DNA from: Psychrobacillus sp. FSL K6-4046
GTDB taxonomy: Bacteria; Bacillota; Bacilli; Bacillales_A; Planococcaceae
Assembly: GCF_038624605.1 (NCBI RefSeq)
Contig: NZ_CP152020.1
Location: 434,001 to 498,000 of the forward strand
Reading direction: 5' to 3'
DNA: 64,000 bases
Below are positions 54,758 through 62,905 of this stretch, one piece after another. Within the stretch, counting starts at the first letter, position 1. Every line of letters starts with the position of its first letter. The translations under genes and the position numbers were made by a program. The notes below the pieces were generated by a model, which ran no database searches, was not told the DNA's origin, and was given only the letters and a program-made list of their open reading frames with translations.

Positions 54758-55864
54758 TCAGTTCCAGACATCCTTTGCTATTTGGACTACATGGCGAATT
54801 TTTGCCCATTGTTCCTCTTCAGTTAATATGTTTCCTTCCTCAGTAGAAGAAAATCCACATTGAGGACTCAAGCAAAGCTGTTCTTTTGGTACATATTTAG
54901 TAGCATCTTCGATGCGAGCTTTAACTAATTCTTCTTCCTCTAGGTCTCCATGCTTAGACGTAATCAGCCCTAGGACAATATTTAAATCCTTTCGATTAAC
55001 ATGTCGTAAAGGCTCGAAACCACCAGAGCGCTCATCGTCAAATTCTAAAAATAAACCATCCACATGTAATCCACCGAATATAGTTTCTGATACTAACTCA
55101 TAGCTTCCGCTTGTAATATAAGTGGATCGGAAATTTCCCCGACAAATATGCATGGTCACTAGCATATCGGCTGGTCTTTTAGAAATAGACTCATTAATAG
55201 CCCTTGCAGAAAGGGATAAGGCTTGCTCTAGCGATAACCCCCTGTCCTTTAAGGAAGCGAGGCCTTCCTCGGAAAAGGAGGTAGCCCATGAAGTATCATC
55301 AATCTGAAGATAAAGACAGCCCTCATCGTAAATTGCCTGGATAAACCCTTGATAAGCTGTGATTAAGTCAGAAAATAATTCCTCATCATTGTTATACACA
55401 CCTTCCTCAATTGCAGCTCGGTAATAAAGCATGTTCGGACTAGGAATAGTAAATTTTACAACAGCATCCCCAGCTGCTTCTTTTAAAAACTTGAAATGCT
55501 CAATCATGTAATGGGTACTAAAGCCAATCTTTCCTGTCACCTTAATACCATGAGCTTTTGTTTGCACCCCTTTAAATGATAGTCCTTGATCGGTTTCATA
55601 AAATTCCACGCCATCTAGTCCGCTTAAAAAATCGAAATGCCACCATTTTCGACGAAATTCTCCATCTGTGATAGAAAGTAATCCAGCTTCCTTCTGTTTT
55701 TCTATGAGTTTAATAATCTCTTCATTTTCCACTTGAGTTAGCTGCTCTTGGGAAATTTCTTTTTGTTCAAATTGAGCCCTTGCTTGCTTTAAACGTTCCG
55801 GTCTCAGGAAGCTTCCAACGTGATCTGCTTTGAAAGGTGCTTTTACAAGTAATTGATTTGTCAT
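54758..55864 (-). CDS. MetE C-terminal-like methionine synthase (YxjG/YxjH type)
   Basis: A 368-residue cytoplasmic enzyme of the cobalamin-independent methionine synthase family, catalytic half only. The zinc ligands are HICRGN (His and Cys) and CLSPQCGF near the C-terminus, with DDTSW and EFDDERSG in the active site. Length and sequence match B. subtilis YxjG/YxjH, believed to methylate homocysteine from an unusual donor. A SAM-I riboswitch with its terminator lies directly upstream, so expression rises when SAM is low. Confidence 0.9.
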   Translation of the reverse strand: MTNQLLVKAPFKADHVGSFLRPERLKQARAQFEQKEISQEQLTQVENEEIIKLIEKQKEAGLLSITDGEFRRKWWHFDFLSGLDGVEFYETDQGLSFKGVQTKAHGIKVTGKIGFSTHYMIEHFKFLKEAAGDAVVKFTIPSPNMLYYRAAIEEGVYNNDEELFSDLITAYQGFIQAIYDEGCLYLQIDDTSWATSFSEEGLASLKDRGLSLEQALSLSARAINESISKRPADMLVTMHICRGNFRSTYITSGSYELVSETIFGGLHVDGLFLEFDDERSGGFEPLRHVNRKDLNIVLGLITSKHGDLEEEELVKARIEDATKYVPKEQLCLSPQCGFSSTEEGNILTEEEQWAKIRHVVQIAKDVWN

Positions 55865-55924: not shown

Positions 55925-56082
55925 AAAAAGAGGGCTCGCTTCATAAGAAGAGAACCCTCAATATATATTGAAGTCATTCTTCTTATCTTCAAGACTTAAT
56001 GTCTATTGGATTTAGCACCACACCTAAAAGGCTGGTTGCTGAGACATCATAGGGCCAATCCCTCCGTCTCTCTTGATAAGAA
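55925..56082 (-). promoter_or_regulatory. SAM-I (S-box) riboswitch
   Basis: On the minus strand the aptamer reads CTTATCAAGAGAGACGGAGG at its 5' end, then GATGTCTCAGCAACC, AGGTGTGGTGCTAAATCC and GACATTAAGTCTTGAAGATAAG, the P1-closing strand. All core motifs are present. The expression platform is a GAGGGTTCTCTTCTT / AAGCGAGCCCTC stem with a T run (55930-55959), 65 bases before the start codon of the methionine synthase gene. Confidence 0.95.
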
Positions 56083-56154: not shown

Positions 56155-57891
56155 TTACTTAGGGATAGCTACCCAGTGACCGTCGGATACCTCTACCAGC
56201 TCAGAATTCTTTAATTGATACTTGTCAGTAACATTAGACTCTTCCATGAGCACACGCTTTTTCTTGGCCTCTACTTTTGGGTCAGGGATTGGAATGGCTG
56301 CTAAGAGAGACTTAGTGTACGGATGCTGTGGATTAGTATAAAGCTCCTCACTTTCTGCTAGCTCTACAATTTTTCCAGAATACATGACAGCAACGCGATC
56401 ACTTATATGTTTTACCATGGACAGGTCATGTGCGATAAATAAGTATGTCAGGCCTAGTCTGTGCTGTAAATCCTCCAAAAGCTCTACAATCTGTGCTTGT
56501 ATAGAAACATCTAAAGCCGATAGAGGTTCGTCACAGACGATAAAATCAGGCTCAACCGCAAGTGCTCGAGCGATACCTATACGTTGTCGCTGTCCACCAG
56601 AGAACTCATGTGGATAACGTAATGCATGCGAGGGCTCTAAGCCTACCAATTCTAGTAATTCCTCTACCCGCTTCTTTCTCTCCTCTGCATTTTTGCTCAG
56701 ACGATGAATATCTAATGCCTGCCCAATAATGTCTAGCACCTTTAAACGAGGGTTTAAGGAAGAGTAGGGGTCCTGGAAGATGATTTGCATATGCCGACGC
56801 ATCGTTTTAAGCTCATTTTTACTTAAACGATTAATGGCCATTCCTTGATATAGCACATCTCCATCTGTAGGCTCATGCAATCGAAGAATCGTCCGACCGG
56901 TAGTAGATTTACCTGAGCCTGATTCTCCTACAAGACCAAGAGTTTCCCCGGGCTTTATAAAGAAGCTAATATCGTCAACCGCTTTTAAGACATTCCCGCG
57001 ACTTACTTGAAAATGTTGTTTTAAAGATTTAACTTCCAGCAGTGGCTTTCCATTTTCTAATCCAATAGAACGAAGAGGAAGTTTCTTCGGCTTTTTCTTC
57101 TCGTCTAAACGAGGTAAGGCATTTAATAGTTTTTTCGTATAGTCATGCTTTGGGTTAGCAAAAATTTCTTCGGTAGTTCCTGTTTCAACGATTTCTCCAT
57201 TTTTCATCACAGCTACACGGTCACACATTCCAGCGACAACTCCAAGGTCATGAGTAATTAAAATAATAGAGGTCCCAAAGCGCTTCTGCATATCCTTCAT
57301 TAAATTTAGTATTTGAGCTTGAATGGTCACGTCTAACGCAGTAGTTGGCTCATCTGCAATAAGTAGAGTAGGCTTACATGCTAAAGCAATGGCAATCATA
57401 ACTCTTTGACGCATACCACCAGAAAACTCATGCGGATATTGGTTATAACGTTCTTCACTATTTTTAATTCCTACAAGCTTGAGTATCTCAATAGCTTGTG
57501 CCTTTCCCTCTTTTTTCGAGAGCTTTTGGTGCTTAATAAGGCTTTCTGCTATTTGAACGCCGATACGAATGGTTGGATTTAAAGAGGTCATTGGATCCTG
57601 AAAAATCATACTGATATCTCTTCCTCTAATAGCTTCCATTTCCTTCTCTGTCTTTGTGTGGAGTTGTTCCCCTAAAAACTCAATGGAACCATTTTTCATG
57701 AAGGAAGGAGGAGAAGGTAAAAGGCGCATAATGGAACGGGCCGTGACACTTTTTCCACTTCCAGATTCTCCGACTATGCCCAATGTTTCTCCTTTTTTAA
57801 CCTCAAAGCTAACACCTCGAACAGCCTCGAATTCATTGTCATTTGTTAAAAAGGAAATCTGTAAATCCTCTACTTTTAAAATAGTTTCCAT
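56155..57891 (-). CDS. Fused double ATP-binding protein of peptide ABC transporter
   Basis: A 578-residue protein with two complete ATPase domains of the DppD and DppF type. Domain 1 (1-260): [12 protein letters not shown]-type [20 protein letters not shown]. Domain 2 (290-540): [31 protein letters not shown]. Each is followed by the oligo/dipeptide C-terminal signature. It runs divergently from the permease genes 240 bases away. ATG 57891 follows AGGTGG. The nearest match in function is import of peptides or nickel chelates. Confidence 0.93.
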
Positions 57892-58056
57892 GAAAACCAC
57901 CTATCTGAATGAAATCTTCGTATTGTTTATGATTCATGCTCTGTTGTTAGAGAGCGTATATTTAAAGTAATATGAGCGGTTTCTACAAAAAAGAAGACTA
58001 AACACGCACATTAGTGGCGCATTTAACCCTACTCTAAATAGACTAAATAATTTGCG

Positions 58057-58085
58057 TTGACTTAATGGTAGTTCGAATCTATACT
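58057..58085 (+). promoter_or_regulatory. Sigma-A promoter of permease-SBP operon
   Basis: TTGACT, a 17-base spacer, TATACT. Near consensus, 48 bases before the permease start. Confidence 0.8.
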
Positions 58086-58132
58086 ATACTATACCACTCG
58101 GATTTATACAATATGGAGAGGGGGGATTTAGT

Positions 58133-59557
58133 ATGGGAAGAAAACTTTCTTCCAACGCATTTAGTTTTACCTACGGAAGACTACAACATCATTCCTTCTA
58201 TAGTATTTTGTTATTTTTACTTGGTTTGCCGGTTCATGTCATTACTTTTATACTCTTTTACTTAAAAAAACAGAAGGATCCTCATTCTTCCTTAAAAAGT
58301 GATTTAAAGTCTGCACTTGAGACAAGGGGAGTGCGAGAGGAACTGTACGAAGAGTATAAGGAACAATATGAACGAAAGCATGCCTTTTTTAATGAAAAAA
58401 TTAATAAAGAAAAAATGACGGCGGAAGTAAATAAACTAGTAGAAGATCGAATAGAAAAGCTTGTATCTACTGAAATGGAAGAAATACATCAGTTAAAAGG
58501 CACGAAGCCTCTTACTTATACATCCTATTTTCAAAGTCTGTTAGAAAATACAACATTTCTCATTATTTCATTTATACCAGGCTTACTGATGTACCTTTTG
58601 TTAGGTATATATAGTAATGCGTTCAGTAAATTTATTTTTGAGAGACTTATTATGAGTGTCTTTGTGATAACGGGTGTTTCCATTCTAGTATTTACTATTT
58701 TATACCTGTCACCATTTGATCCAGCTGCCAATCTTTTAGGGGAAAGTGCAACGAAGGATCAGATTGCTGCATTCAACCAAATGCACGGGTTAGACTTACC
58801 TTATTTACATCAGTTATGGAATTCGGTAAAAGGTATCGTAACATTTGATTTAGGAGCATCCTTTACGGGAAATGAAGATGTCGCTACAAGTATTGCAAAC
58901 AAGTTTCCAGTTACGCTAATGATTGCTATCTTTTCTTTAGTGATGGCTGTAGTGATCGCGATCCCAGTAGGAATCATATCTGCAACAAGACAAAACTCGT
59001 TCTTAGATTATTCCTTTATGTTCATTGCTTTGATCGGCTTGTCCATCCCTAACTTTTGGCAAGGGCTTATCTTCATCTTGAACTTTTCTATTAAGCTACA
59101 ATGGCTTCCTGCAACCTATAGTCCTCAAAACTATTTGTCGATTATTATGCCTGTAGTTGTGCTCGGAACAGGTCTTACTGCTTCGGTAGCGAGAATGACA
59201 CGTTCATCCGTATTAGAAATTATAAATGAGGATTATATAATTACTGCAAAAGCAAAAGGCTTAAACCAACGCCAAGTGCTTTGGAAGCATGCAATAGGAA
59301 ATGCAATGATTCCAATCATTACGGTTATCGGTCTACTGTTTGGTGGAATGCTAGGTGGAGCAGCTGTTACAGAGAAAGTATTCAATATTAGTGGTATTGG
59401 GAGTTATATTGTCGACAAACAGTTTATACCCGATATCCCAGCCATTATGGGTGGAGTTATTTATATTGCAATAACCATTTCCTTAGTGAACGTGCTCATC
59501 GACATTTTATATGCATTTTTTGATCCGCGTATAAAATCTAAGATGAAGCAACTGTAA
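58133..59557 (+). CDS. DppB-type ABC permease with long N-terminal extension
   Basis: A 474-residue protein, about 150 longer than DppB/OppB. Residues 1-170 are an extension: one membrane helix (about 24-43), a charged coiled-coil-like cytoplasmic stretch (residues 50-125), a second helix (about 135-160). The standard permease follows: LYLSPFDPAANLLG, VFDLGASF region, and the coupling loop EDYIITAKAKGLNQRQVLWKH near residue 365, then the usual C-terminal FFDPRIK. GAGAGGGGGG precedes the ATG. Confidence 0.88.
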   Translation: MGRKLSSNAFSFTYGRLQHHSFYSILLFLLGLPVHVITFILFYLKKQKDPHSSLKSDLKSALETRGVREELYEEYKEQYERKHAFFNEKINKEKMTAEVNKLVEDRIEKLVSTEMEEIHQLKGTKPLTYTSYFQSLLENTTFLIISFIPGLLMYLLLGIYSNAFSKFIFERLIMSVFVITGVSILVFTILYLSPFDPAANLLGESATKDQIAAFNQMHGLDLPYLHQLWNSVKGIVTFDLGASFTGNEDVATSIANKFPVTLMIAIFSLVMAVVIAIPVGIISATRQNSFLDYSFMFIALIGLSIPNFWQGLIFILNFSIKLQWLPATYSPQNYLSIIMPVVVLGTGLTASVARMTRSSVLEIINEDYIITAKAKGLNQRQVLWKHAIGNAMIPIITVIGLLFGGMLGGAAVTEKVFNISGIGSYIVDKQFIPDIPAIMGGVIYIAITISLVNVLIDILYAFFDPRIKSKMKQL

Positions 59558-59572: not shown

Positions 59573-61063
59573 GTGGTATCTAAAAAACAACATGCACTAA
59601 AGCTGTCACGAGAATATACTCAGGCAAACTTTGCTGGAGTATTATCTCTTCTACTGACAATAGTTTTATTGTTTAATAGCTTTAATTTTGATATGGGTAC
59701 GTTAAAGCCAATTGCTAGTAGTGTTTCAGCTATATATGCATTTTTTACAGCGATTCAGTATTTTATAATCTGGAGAATGAAGCGAGAGCTTTTGAGTTTA
59801 GGGCATTTAAAAAATGCTACTAGAAGGCTTGGCTATGTCCAAGTAACCGCTCTATTAACTGGTAATATCTTCATAGCATCATTCGGTTTTAATTTGATCA
59901 AGGAGAAGAAAACACCAGAATACACATTCAGCATTTGGATGATTTTCACCCAGCTGTTTATTCTAGTTATTTCTGCATTAAATCTCTTTAAACCCTATGT
60001 GTCGGACACTTTTTTACCCGCAATGGGTGCTTTACTCGTCATTTTAATTATCCAAGTGTTTACTTTGGTGGCTGTAGCTAGGTATGTCAGTGATGAAGGC
60101 GCGCCTGGGTGGATGCAAGGCTTAGCGATTGTATTAATTATCACTTCGTTGACAGGTAATATTTTCAACTTACTGCTTGGCGTTAGCTTAATCATTAAAA
60201 CGCGTAGTAACAGTCTGTCACGAATAGTGAAGTGGAACACAATGTGGGATAAAATCACTCGTAATTCTACAGCTATACTAGGAATGTTCTTTATCGTTCT
60301 TATGTTCGCGTTATCAGTGTCTAGCCGTTTTACTTTTGACTATGATATGGCAGTAGAGAATAACTATGAGGCACTGCTTCAGTCGCCAAGCTTGGAATAT
60401 CCGTTCGGTACAGATAATTATGGCAGAGATGTATTTTCTCGAATTATCTTCGGGGCGAGAATTTCTCTAATTGTAGGCTTTGCTTCTACGTTAATACCAT
60501 TCATAGTGGGAGGGGCATTAGGAGCATTGGCTGGATATTACAGCAAACGTACAGATAACATCATTATGCGTTTGCTTGATATTTTGTACGCAATTCCAGG
60601 GATATTACTTGCCATTGCAATTATTGCAGCATTCGGAGCAAATACTACGAATCTTATACTAGCTTTGAGTGTTGGTTCTATTCCGACATATGCTCGAACA
60701 ATGCGAGCGAATGTGATGATGGTCTCGAATTACGAATATGTAGATTCTGCCCGGGCTTTAGGGGCTTCCAATCTATCGATCATCTTTAAGCAAATTGTTC
60801 CAAATTCCCTTGCACCTATGATTGTCAAAGCTACACTTACAATAGGTACAGCAGTAATTGCAACGAGTAGCTTGAGCTTCTTAGGTCTTGGAGTAGAGCC
60901 ACATATACCTGAATGGGGCAATATTTTAAAAATAGGTAGTACTTATTTAGAGTCTAATTCCTATTTGGCGATTATACCTGGCCTTGCAATTATAGGTCTC
61001 GTATTATCTTTTAACTTTTTAGGCGATGGACTTAGAGATGCATTTGATCCGAGAATGGATTAA
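59573..61063 (+). CDS. DppC-type ABC permease with six-helix N-terminal extension
   Basis: A 496-residue protein, about 200 longer than DppC. Residues 15-215 hold about six hydrophobic segments of no known domain. Residues 230-496 are a normal DppC: LEYPFGTDNYGRDVFSRIIFG is the family signature, the coupling loop is DSARALGASNLSIIFKQIVP, and it ends DGLRDAFDPRMD. GTG start, 16 bases after the previous gene. It pairs with the extended DppB-type protein to make the channel. Confidence 0.87.
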   Translation: MVSKKQHALKLSREYTQANFAGVLSLLLTIVLLFNSFNFDMGTLKPIASSVSAIYAFFTAIQYFIIWRMKRELLSLGHLKNATRRLGYVQVTALLTGNIFIASFGFNLIKEKKTPEYTFSIWMIFTQLFILVISALNLFKPYVSDTFLPAMGALLVILIIQVFTLVAVARYVSDEGAPGWMQGLAIVLIITSLTGNIFNLLLGVSLIIKTRSNSLSRIVKWNTMWDKITRNSTAILGMFFIVLMFALSVSSRFTFDYDMAVENNYEALLQSPSLEYPFGTDNYGRDVFSRIIFGARISLIVGFASTLIPFIVGGALGALAGYYSKRTDNIIMRLLDILYAIPGILLAIAIIAAFGANTTNLILALSVGSIPTYARTMRANVMMVSNYEYVDSARALGASNLSIIFKQIVPNSLAPMIVKATLTIGTAVIATSSLSFLGLGVEPHIPEWGNILKIGSTYLESNSYLAIIPGLAIIGLVLSFNFLGDGLRDAFDPRMD

Positions 61064-61090: not shown

Positions 61091-62905
61091 ATGAAGAATA
61101 CAAAAGCATTATTGGCTTTATTGTTAACGCTAGTTTTAATATTGGCAGGTTGTGTAAACACAAAATCAGACGTAGATAAAGCAACAGACAAATCTGATTC
61201 TAAAACAGAGCAGGGTAAGGTAGTAATTGAGCTGTTAGGGATGAGCACTGGGGAAGCGGACATGAATATTGTACGTGACCAGTTAATCAAAAATGGCTTC
61301 GATGTGAAATTAAATATTCAACCAGACTACGGTAGCTTCACTGCGCAAAAAGATGCAGGAAACTATGATTTAGCTTTATCTAGCTGGACGACTGTAACGG
61401 GTAACCCCGACTATGCAGTACGTGCGCTTTTTAAAACAGACGGTGATAACAGCATTATGTCTGACAAAAAAATCGATGAGCTGATTGAAGAGGCTAGCAC
61501 AGAAACACCGGAAGAGTACACAAAAACATATAAAGAGTTCGAGGATCTTTTAGTCCTAGAAAAAGCATATATTGCACCGTTATATAATTCTTTTAAAGCG
61601 CAAGGAGTAAATAAAGAAGTATTGAATGCGGATACTGTGAGATTGGCTAAATCTCGTGCAATCGCTTGGGAAACAATTGACTTTGTAGATGCTTCTAAAA
61701 GAGATTCTGCACCACTGATCATGCAACAGGGAATGGCATCCTTAACTTCATTAGATCCTATTAAAGGAAATGATGGTTCTATTAATACACTAAATACAAA
61801 TATGTACGTTCGTTTAGTTAACTTAACAGACGATGATAAAGTAGTTTCCGACGGTTCTCTTTCATTGAACCATGCAATCGCAGATGGCAATAAAGATTAT
61901 TACTTCTTACTAAGAGATGATATTAACTTTGCAGCAGTAACAGATAAAAAAGCAGTTGATACGGGAGAACGCGTAGGGGCAGAGGATGTCGTATTCTCGA
62001 TGAACCGTGCAAAAGACAGCAAATCAGTTCCAGACCATCGCACATATAGCTTACACGAAAGCATGGAAAAGATTGAAATCGTATCAGATCTTTCAGAGCT
62101 TGATGTGAAGCAATCTGGCAGTGATATTACAGTGAAGGAAGCTTTAGAAAATAATGTGGATACAGCAATTTCAGAGCTAGTGACAGATAAAACACAAGCA
62201 GATGCAGCTAAAGGGAAATACCAAGTAGTTAAAATTACAACGACTAATCCATTCCCACAAGTTTTAAATTATTTGGCTCATCAATCTGCAGGGATTGTGT
62301 CTAAAAAACAAGTAGAGAGCATCAACACTTACGATGTTGCTACCTTCGATGTAAACAAAGATATTCCTTACGGGGATCAAAATACAGTAACGGAAGGTGC
62401 TTCTTACAATAATACGTTATATGCTAGTGGGCCTTACATCTTATCCCACAAAAATGATTATGAGGCAGTATTCGTAAAAAACCCAGCTTATATGCAAGGA
62501 ACTGAAAACGAGCCGAAGATTGCAAACGTAACCGTTCGTTTCATTGCAGATGCAGATAGCGCGCTATCGGCTCTTCGCAACGGAGAGATTCATATATTTA
62601 ATGGAGTTCCTGAAACAAAATACAAATTAGTAGAAGATGATAGCAAGCTAACTCTTCAGAAAAACGATAGCAATGCTGTAAGTTATCTGCTATTTAATAC
62701 AAAAGGTCGTGATGTATCAGAAAGCGAATCTTTACGTAAAGCGATTCTGTACTCGATCAACCAGGATGAAATCATTAACTATTACCAAGGAAACAAGAAA
62801 AAAGCAGTATCAACTGTAAGTCCTCTTGTAGAAACGGGTAACGAGCTTAAGGCAGATGCTGCTAAGGTAAATGAGTACTTAGAGGCTTTTAAAGCAGGTA
62901 AATAA
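61091..62905 (+). CDS. Peptide-type substrate-binding lipoprotein with circularly permuted SBP_bac_5 domain
   Basis: A 604-residue lipoprotein (lipobox LAGC, Cys21). The parts of an SBP_bac_5 protein occur in an unusual order. Residues 43-200 match the normal C-terminal lobe: VRDQLIKNGFDVKLNI, GNYDLALSSWTT, KKIDELIEEAS, AYIAPLYNS. Residues 207-604 then match the normal N-terminal and middle parts: SLTSLDPIKG, YYFLLRDDINF, GAEDVVFSMNRA, LRKAILYSINQDEIINYY. The protein ends in DAAKVNEYLEAF, the place where a canonical protein would run into residue 43. Every part is present once, so permutation rather than fusion is likely. AAGGAGG start, good terminator. Confidence 0.88.
   Translation: MKNTKALLALLLTLVLILAGCVNTKSDVDKATDKSDSKTEQGKVVIELLGMSTGEADMNIVRDQLIKNGFDVKLNIQPDYGSFTAQKDAGNYDLALSSWTTVTGNPDYAVRALFKTDGDNSIMSDKKIDELIEEASTETPEEYTKTYKEFEDLLVLEKAYIAPLYNSFKAQGVNKEVLNADTVRLAKSRAIAWETIDFVDASKRDSAPLIMQQGMASLTSLDPIKGNDGSINTLNTNMYVRLVNLTDDDKVVSDGSLSLNHAIADGNKDYYFLLRDDINFAAVTDKKAVDTGERVGAEDVVFSMNRAKDSKSVPDHRTYSLHESMEKIEIVSDLSELDVKQSGSDITVKEALENNVDTAISELVTDKTQADAAKGKYQVVKITTTNPFPQVLNYLAHQSAGIVSKKQVESINTYDVATFDVNKDIPYGDQNTVTEGASYNNTLYASGPYILSHKNDYEAVFVKNPAYMQGTENEPKIANVTVRFIADADSALSALRNGEIHIFNGVPETKYKLVEDDSKLTLQKNDSNAVSYLLFNTKGRDVSESESLRKAILYSINQDEIINYYQGNKKKAVSTVSPLVETGNELKADAAKVNEYLEAFKAGK

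Follow-up and report, generated by a model that had tools for sequence, protein, structure and literature searches.

The lipoprotein encoded at 61091..62905 of the window (the whole stretch of 64,000 nucleotides that was analysed) belongs to the SBP_bac_5 family (DppA/OppA/GsiB class) and is naturally circularly permuted, a conclusion that we regard as nearly certain. Taken as a whole, the arrangement is probably that of a permuted solute-binding protein (SBP) within a dedicated GisABCD-type ABC importer encoded by four genes, in which the lipoprotein would be the substrate-capturing part and for which a fold, an origin, and a ligand are proposed below. The features of the unit are as follows.

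56155..57900, minus strand: fused double ATPase, 581 aa, divergent from the permease and SBP genes (open reading frame and profile searches)
58057-58062 and 58080-58085, plus strand: promoter-like site in the divergent region, with a -35 element (TTGACT), 17 bp, and a -10 element (TATACT)
58086-58112, plus strand: conserved box, running from the -10 element onward (divergent-region comparison)
58133..59557, plus strand: permease B (permB), 474 aa, DppB/GsiC type, with an N-terminal extension of ~165 residues
59573..61063, plus strand: permease C (permC), 496 aa, DppC/GsiD type, with an N-terminal extension of ~195-218 residues containing 6 hydrophobic segments (~59573-60226)
61091..62905, plus strand: circularly permuted SBP_bac_5 lipoprotein, GisD-like, 604 aa, start ATG
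61091..61150, plus strand: lipoprotein signal peptide, with cleavage before Cys21 (LILAGC; read by eye; Cys21 in 49/49 alignment rows)
61151..61216, plus strand: Cys21 and linker 22-42 at the new N-terminus, with conserved CVxTKSDV (49-row alignment)
61217..61702, plus strand: block 1 (residues 43-204), the canonical C-terminal part of SBP_bac_5, comprising the later C-lobe and the return to the N-lobe (Pfam, PDB, and profile alignments)
61703..62902, plus strand: block 2 (residues 205-604), the canonical N-terminal part of SBP_bac_5, comprising the N-lobe and the first part of the C-lobe (Pfam, PDB, and profile alignments)

SBP_bac_5 was the sole Pfam family above its cut-off in the lipoprotein. 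In native order, the protein scored 138.9 bits to PF00496 (gathering cut-off of 32.4 bits) in two stretches. Residues 263-599 matched profile positions 12-275, and residues 54-120 matched positions 301-367 when block 1 (residues 42-203) was scanned alone. The two parts showed zero overlap in the profile, and each was matched once, with a profile gap (276-300) at the cut. Compared to DppA and OppA (SBP_bac_5, cluster C), the protein contains the same profile parts (12-367) once each, except for this gap, and differs in their order. When the sequence was reordered (residues 205-604 followed by 43-204), the two stretches merged into a single match to positions 12-367 with a score of 150.1 bits, and the E-value of the best PDB match, 1uqw, improved from 2e-12 to 5.3e-15. 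These results bear out the swapped order proposed in a preliminary description of this DNA, as well as its statement that all parts are present once behind one signal peptide. Block 1 aligned to SBP_bac_5 and not to an unrelated domain, and block 2 covered only positions 12-275 of the 368 in the profile.

Alignments to solved structures showed the same inversion. Residues 445-582 and 86-162 aligned to 181-317 and 394-476 of 1uqw, respectively, and residues 445-573 and 58-164 aligned to 200-325 and 379-489 of 5u4o. Likewise, positions 217-313, 435-567, and 56-174 of a profile built from 49 relatives aligned to 20-112, 180-310, and 373-494 of 3tpa. By contrast, ordinary SBP paralogues in the same genomes had the canonical order of pieces in 12/12 cases, judged by eye among the matches listed that showed both pieces. 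Permutations of this kind are easily overlooked, because profile tools break such proteins into two pieces. It could be argued that block 1 is an extra copy of the domain and that the canonical C-terminal part still follows block 2. No support was found for such a duplication, and it is refuted because the match runs out at profile position 275 with only five residues of the protein left (599 of 604), and because each part is matched once; we consider its probability to be vanishingly small.

We obtained several results about the position of the cut. In the 49-relative profile alignment, block 2 ended opposite mature residue 337 of DppA, and block 1 picked up after 337. From the domain limits of DppA and OppA, we take this residue to lie inside domain III, the C-terminal lobe. 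With these limits, the new ends and the lipid anchor would be on the C-lobe, not at the hinge side where they had been placed in the preliminary description, and roughly the first 80 residues of the C-lobe would remain at the C-terminus of the permuted protein. Thus, the earlier proposal that the C-lobe precedes the N-lobe stands as to order, whereas its exact division of the lobes does not. From our reading of the alignment and the modelled strands, the old C- and N-termini are probably joined within roughly residues 195-207; they would have been close together and would have been joined directly. The new N-terminus in the C-lobe would bear the lipid anchor via the conserved linker, in which T24 is present in 49 of the 49 aligned rows, K25 in 45, V22 in 44, V28 in 39, S26 in 37, and D27 in 34, with variable sequence beyond.

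An AlphaFold2 model of the permuted lipoprotein based on 49 sequences had a mean pLDDT of 82.5 and a pTM of 0.80, with pLDDT values under 50 at residues 1-5, 12-40, 219-230, 313-321, and 426-439. The first 36 PDB matches to the model in Foldseek were solute-binding proteins, mostly of the peptide, nickel, opine, or chitooligosaccharide type. TMt values were at most 0.48; such low values are expected, because the Foldseek aligner is order-dependent and covers part of the chain, and the matches are no proof of the whole fold. We propose that the protein would adopt the usual Venus-flytrap fold, close on its ligand, and dock on the permeases in the usual way.

Searches for homologues with the same order, as suggested in the preliminary description, revealed a large family. 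Full-length relatives of the same order were present in 14/61 near genomes, namely the own genome, 7/17 of the genus, 6/19 of other family members, and 0/24 from other families of the class; the open frames in the 13 other genomes were 64-90% identical to the protein. Among 398 sampled Bacilli genomes, 35 contained a match at 1e-60, of which 34 were full length, and a phylum sample gave matches in 4/398 genomes (the own genome plus three others from its class); the 1e-60 limit is strict, and remote permuted relatives may have been missed in both searches. A contig scan of 84,980 genomes yielded 302 relatives, and the best 80 of these were read. They came from Psychrobacillus, Sporosarcina, other Bacillaceae, Paenibacillus, and Brevibacillus; the names of two records, Arthrobacter (L035) and Bacillus subtilis DE0224 (L064), seem to be wrong. 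In 79 of these 80 contigs, the frame aligned from residue 20 or an earlier position, and the called frame at locus L048 starts only at residue 61. Alignments of the permuted protein had a mean column identity of 81% (14 rows) or 76% (49 rows), and conservation extended along the entire length.

This distribution also bears on whether ORF 61091-62905 could stem from misassembly or from the fusion of two broken genes. Such a reading gains some appeal from the literature, since TpMglB-2 (Tp0684) was the sole precedent for a permuted ABC binding protein found in open-access papers, and none of the DppA/OppA class was found there. However, the same-order frames in the 13 other near genomes, in 79 of the best 80 contigs, and in 34 Bacilli genomes, together with full-length conservation, contradict it. 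The same order in independent assemblies implies that the ORF is no assembly error and refutes this explanation, to which we give almost no credence. TpMglB-2, a glucose-binding ABC lipoprotein, is likewise naturally circularly permuted; its permutation is common to Gram-positive relatives and leaves ligand binding intact (PMC4990184). It differs from the protein described here in having a Type I (Cluster B) sugar-binding fold of another family, with a permutation in the N-lobe (PMC4990184).

The permuted gene was closely associated with the other genes of the unit. Among the loci of the best 80 of the 302 relatives, the order of divergent fused ATPase, permB, permC, and permuted SBP gene last was found in 79/80; locus L062 ends at a contig edge, and genes are split at L033 and L091. 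By simple hydropathy cut, permB contains 8 hydrophobic segments and permC contains 11. No Pfam family reached its cut-off in either N-terminal extension, and several NikB/GsiC-type models begin at permB residue 166, past the extension. The permB extension has hydrophobic segments at 24-42 and 141-159 on either side of a charged stretch (43-140), which AlphaFold2 modelled with helices at 50-64, 67-85, and 92-122. If the core of permB has its usual inside N-terminus, as we assume, then stretch 43-140 would face the outside. The best PDB matches to the permB model were DppB/OppB of E. coli and M. tuberculosis, over ~300-330 columns. A weak match to the permB extension in another genome (G107) was rejected, as its sequence is that of what we take to be a chemotaxis-type protein. 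The permC extension (59573-60226) resembles two three-TM repeats that share LTGNIF...G..LI, with a weak BLAST match between them.

Co-occurrence at 79 of the best 80 loci strengthens the proposed link between the permuted SBP and the extended permeases. A further reading of this link is that the permutation, the CVxTKSDV anchor linker, and the probably outside-facing helical stretch of permB co-evolved, so that the SBP would be held by its C-lobe in a fixed orientation on an ectodomain and would dock unlike ordinary Dpp/Opp proteins. We consider such co-evolution unlikely and favour the usual mode of docking on the permeases.

The permuted lipoprotein and its unit most resemble the GisABCD-Ggt system of S. 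aureus. In both, the ATPase gene is divergent from the permB-permC-SBP genes, the SBP is a lipoprotein, and the permeases have more than six predicted TM segments (PMC10355420). The GisABCD permeases have nine predicted TM segments (PMC10355420), compared to the 8 and 11 hydropathy segments of permB and permC. GisABCD-Ggt imports GSH and GSSG, and mutants grow poorly on either as a sulfur source; uptake of GSSG by the Gis system is described, and gisA is presumed to be divergent (PMC10355420). The survey of Gis systems in that paper was restricted to Ggt-bearing genomes and reported the full system in staphylococci only and "nearly the complete" system in few bacilli; the main text contains no word beginning with "permut" (PMC10355420).

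Three genomes (G067, G692, and G737) carry a diverged full-length relative, and the loci of two of these, L202 (G067) and L203 (G692), were read. L202 contains a divergent ATPase, permB, permC, the permuted SBP, and Ggt, in this order, and tblastn and a Ggt search showed the same order at L203; both Ggt genes scored above the TIGR00066 cut-off. Judging from this layout, L202 and L203 are probably Staphylococcus-type units, and the SBPs of these GisABCD-like units have the permuted order seen in the window. The ATPase, permB, permC, and SBP of L202 were 49, 44, 46, and 40% identical to those of the window, respectively (permC from residue 107), and the two SBPs were colinear across 590 columns. 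The permC of L202 is 390 aa, compared to 496 aa in the window, and contains about half of the window permC extension. An S. aureus record matched window protein residues 20-225, spanning the permutation junction, with 44.9% identity; the match stops at residue 225 with no annotated gene underneath, and a divergent ATPase and a permease lie nearby. The gene order at L202 and L203 and this match across the junction imply that GisD is very probably permuted too.

Unlike the unit in the window, the E. coli GsiABCD system has a canonically ordered binding protein and is encoded in a single operon (PMC10355420), and the models of its permeases start past the extensions of the window permeases. It is similar in other ways. 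The nearest solved SBP by sequence, 1uqw, is YliB and thus GsiB, because yliABCD is the former name of GsiABCD (PMC10355420). The best NCBIfam model of the ATPase is GsiA and that of permC is GsiD, both under their cut-offs. For permC, GsiD (274.0 bits) was level with Opp4C (273.3 bits); the nearest model of permB was Opp2B, labelled as a nickel permease; and the ATPase, which missed the GsiA cut-off, passed those of OppF, CntD, CntF, NikD, and NikE. Because Opp, Nik, and Cnt models matched as well, the NCBIfam names assigned to these proteins do not point specifically to glutathione.

From these comparisons, we tentatively favour glutathione, GSSG, or a similar cysteine-containing peptide as the ligand, which would be imported for its sulfur, perhaps under CymR-type control. 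This interpretation is weakened by the absence of ggt and by a difference in the ligand site. Unlike GisABCD-Ggt, the unit has no adjoining ggt: none was found in the 64-kb window or in the flanks of the loci of the best 80 of 302 relatives, and the single TIGR00066 match in the own genome lies outside the unit and below the cut-off. It is a Ggt-like gene (G000:C1:3674783-3676303), and an SBP match at 3678912 lies ~2.6 kb away. Within the nearly invariant segment WTTVTGNPDYAVR, the amino acid at position 111 is Arg in 49/49 rows, and its equivalent is Ser in L202, Asn in L203, and Ser in GsiB, which suggests that the ligand may differ. It is quite possible, then, that the same permuted importer takes up another ligand, such as an oligopeptide, a nickel chelate, or another metallophore, and that its Gis layout is ancestral. 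The invariance of Arg111 in the Bacilli clade and its absence from L202 and L203, the lack of a nearby ggt, the Opp2B, NikD/NikE, and CntD/CntF matches, and the mere ~40% identity of the SBP to that of L202 favour another ligand, whereas the best PDB match to GsiB, the Gis-type layout, and a post hoc likeness of the promoter box to that of yrrT in two genomes (see below) argue against it. Neighbouring genes gave no useful clue to the ligand: clusters of other ORFs (without BLAST matches to the unit proteins) in the flanking DNA occurred at no more than 14 of these 80 loci.

The evidence on possible sulfur control of the importer came from the divergent region. A 21-base form of the box was present with ≤2 mismatches in 70/79 divergent regions, compared to 0.0 per 79 in shuffles, and a long form occurred a single time per genome in the own genome (G000) and four others. 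Searches against Rfam found only the SAM riboswitch of another gene. This SAM-I riboswitch (55980-56082, minus strand) precedes the gene at 54758-55864 (minus strand), just downstream of the ATPase gene; the product presumably resembles a MetE-type methionine synthase, which would put sulfur metabolism next door. The box was rejected as a regulon in the own genome, where its 18-base core gave 32 sites with ≤2 mismatches compared to 30 for a control pattern, and where the five sites outside of the operon with ≤1 mismatch had no start of a gene >61 aa within 350 bp on the strand.

The box pattern was compared with 11 cysK-family loci from five genomes. Its two best matches (2 mismatches) were in G608 and G610, upstream of genes that we take to be yrrT-mtnN-mccA-like; there, the box starts 30 and 41 bases upstream of yrrT as called. 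The upstream regions of the strongest cysK relatives had at least 4 mismatches to the box. A second pattern was shaped after the yrrT sites had been viewed, so that the likeness is post hoc; it gave 11 sites with ≤2 mismatches in the five genomes, compared to 1 for a control pattern. Five of these sites belonged to this operon and two to yrrT, and four, a number matching chance, were near no recognised sulfur gene. With ≤1 mismatch, three sites remained (the G610 operon and the two yrrT sites), compared to 0.18 expected from base composition, a count that is not independent of the pattern. The yrrT comparison covered four genomes (G000, G608, G610, and G611), and nothing closer than 6 mismatches was found upstream of yrrT in the own genome (G000) or in G611. 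In B. subtilis, CymR represses the yrrT-mtnN-mccAB operon (PMC3519770). The likeness of the two boxes is suggestive only, and CymR control of the importer unit is plausible on these sequence comparisons.

In a tree of 53 permuted proteins, a long branch separated L202 and L203 from the others, and Bacillaceae and Caryophanaceae were intermixed. A copy of the permuted protein on a Metabacillus plasmid has the same order and 74.2% identity; together with the mixed tree, this copy suggests some transfer. The 362-kb plasmid of Metabacillus dongyingensis (L219) carries the entire four-gene unit. A remnant of the unit is present in G766 (L205, 7984-8812), where an ATPase fragment (525-576) directly adjoins an SBP fragment (382-600). 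We propose that the permutation would have arisen by tandem duplication, fusion, and loss of the outer parts, with a single origin that predates the divergence or spread of the Bacillaceae, Paenibacillaceae, and Staphylococcus-type members. One candidate for a double-SBP intermediate, a 1166-codon stretch in G020, was rejected, as it consists of two separate canonical SBP genes. These tandem genes (L191, 2576-4174 and 4391-6073), which are in the same frame and 216 bp apart, illustrate a possible precursor of a permuted gene.

Natural circular permutation has been recorded in few two-lobed ABC binding proteins. The kind of importer described here is known, and what is new is a permuted binding protein of the DppA/OppA class. 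Members of the permuted family occur in the Bacillaceae, Caryophanaceae, and Paenibacillaceae, as well as in S. aureus, whose homologous GisABCD supplies the cell with sulfur from glutathione. It offers a ready-made permuted scaffold for use in biosensors, and a natural test of whether docking and transport depend on the placement of the chain termini and lipid anchor.
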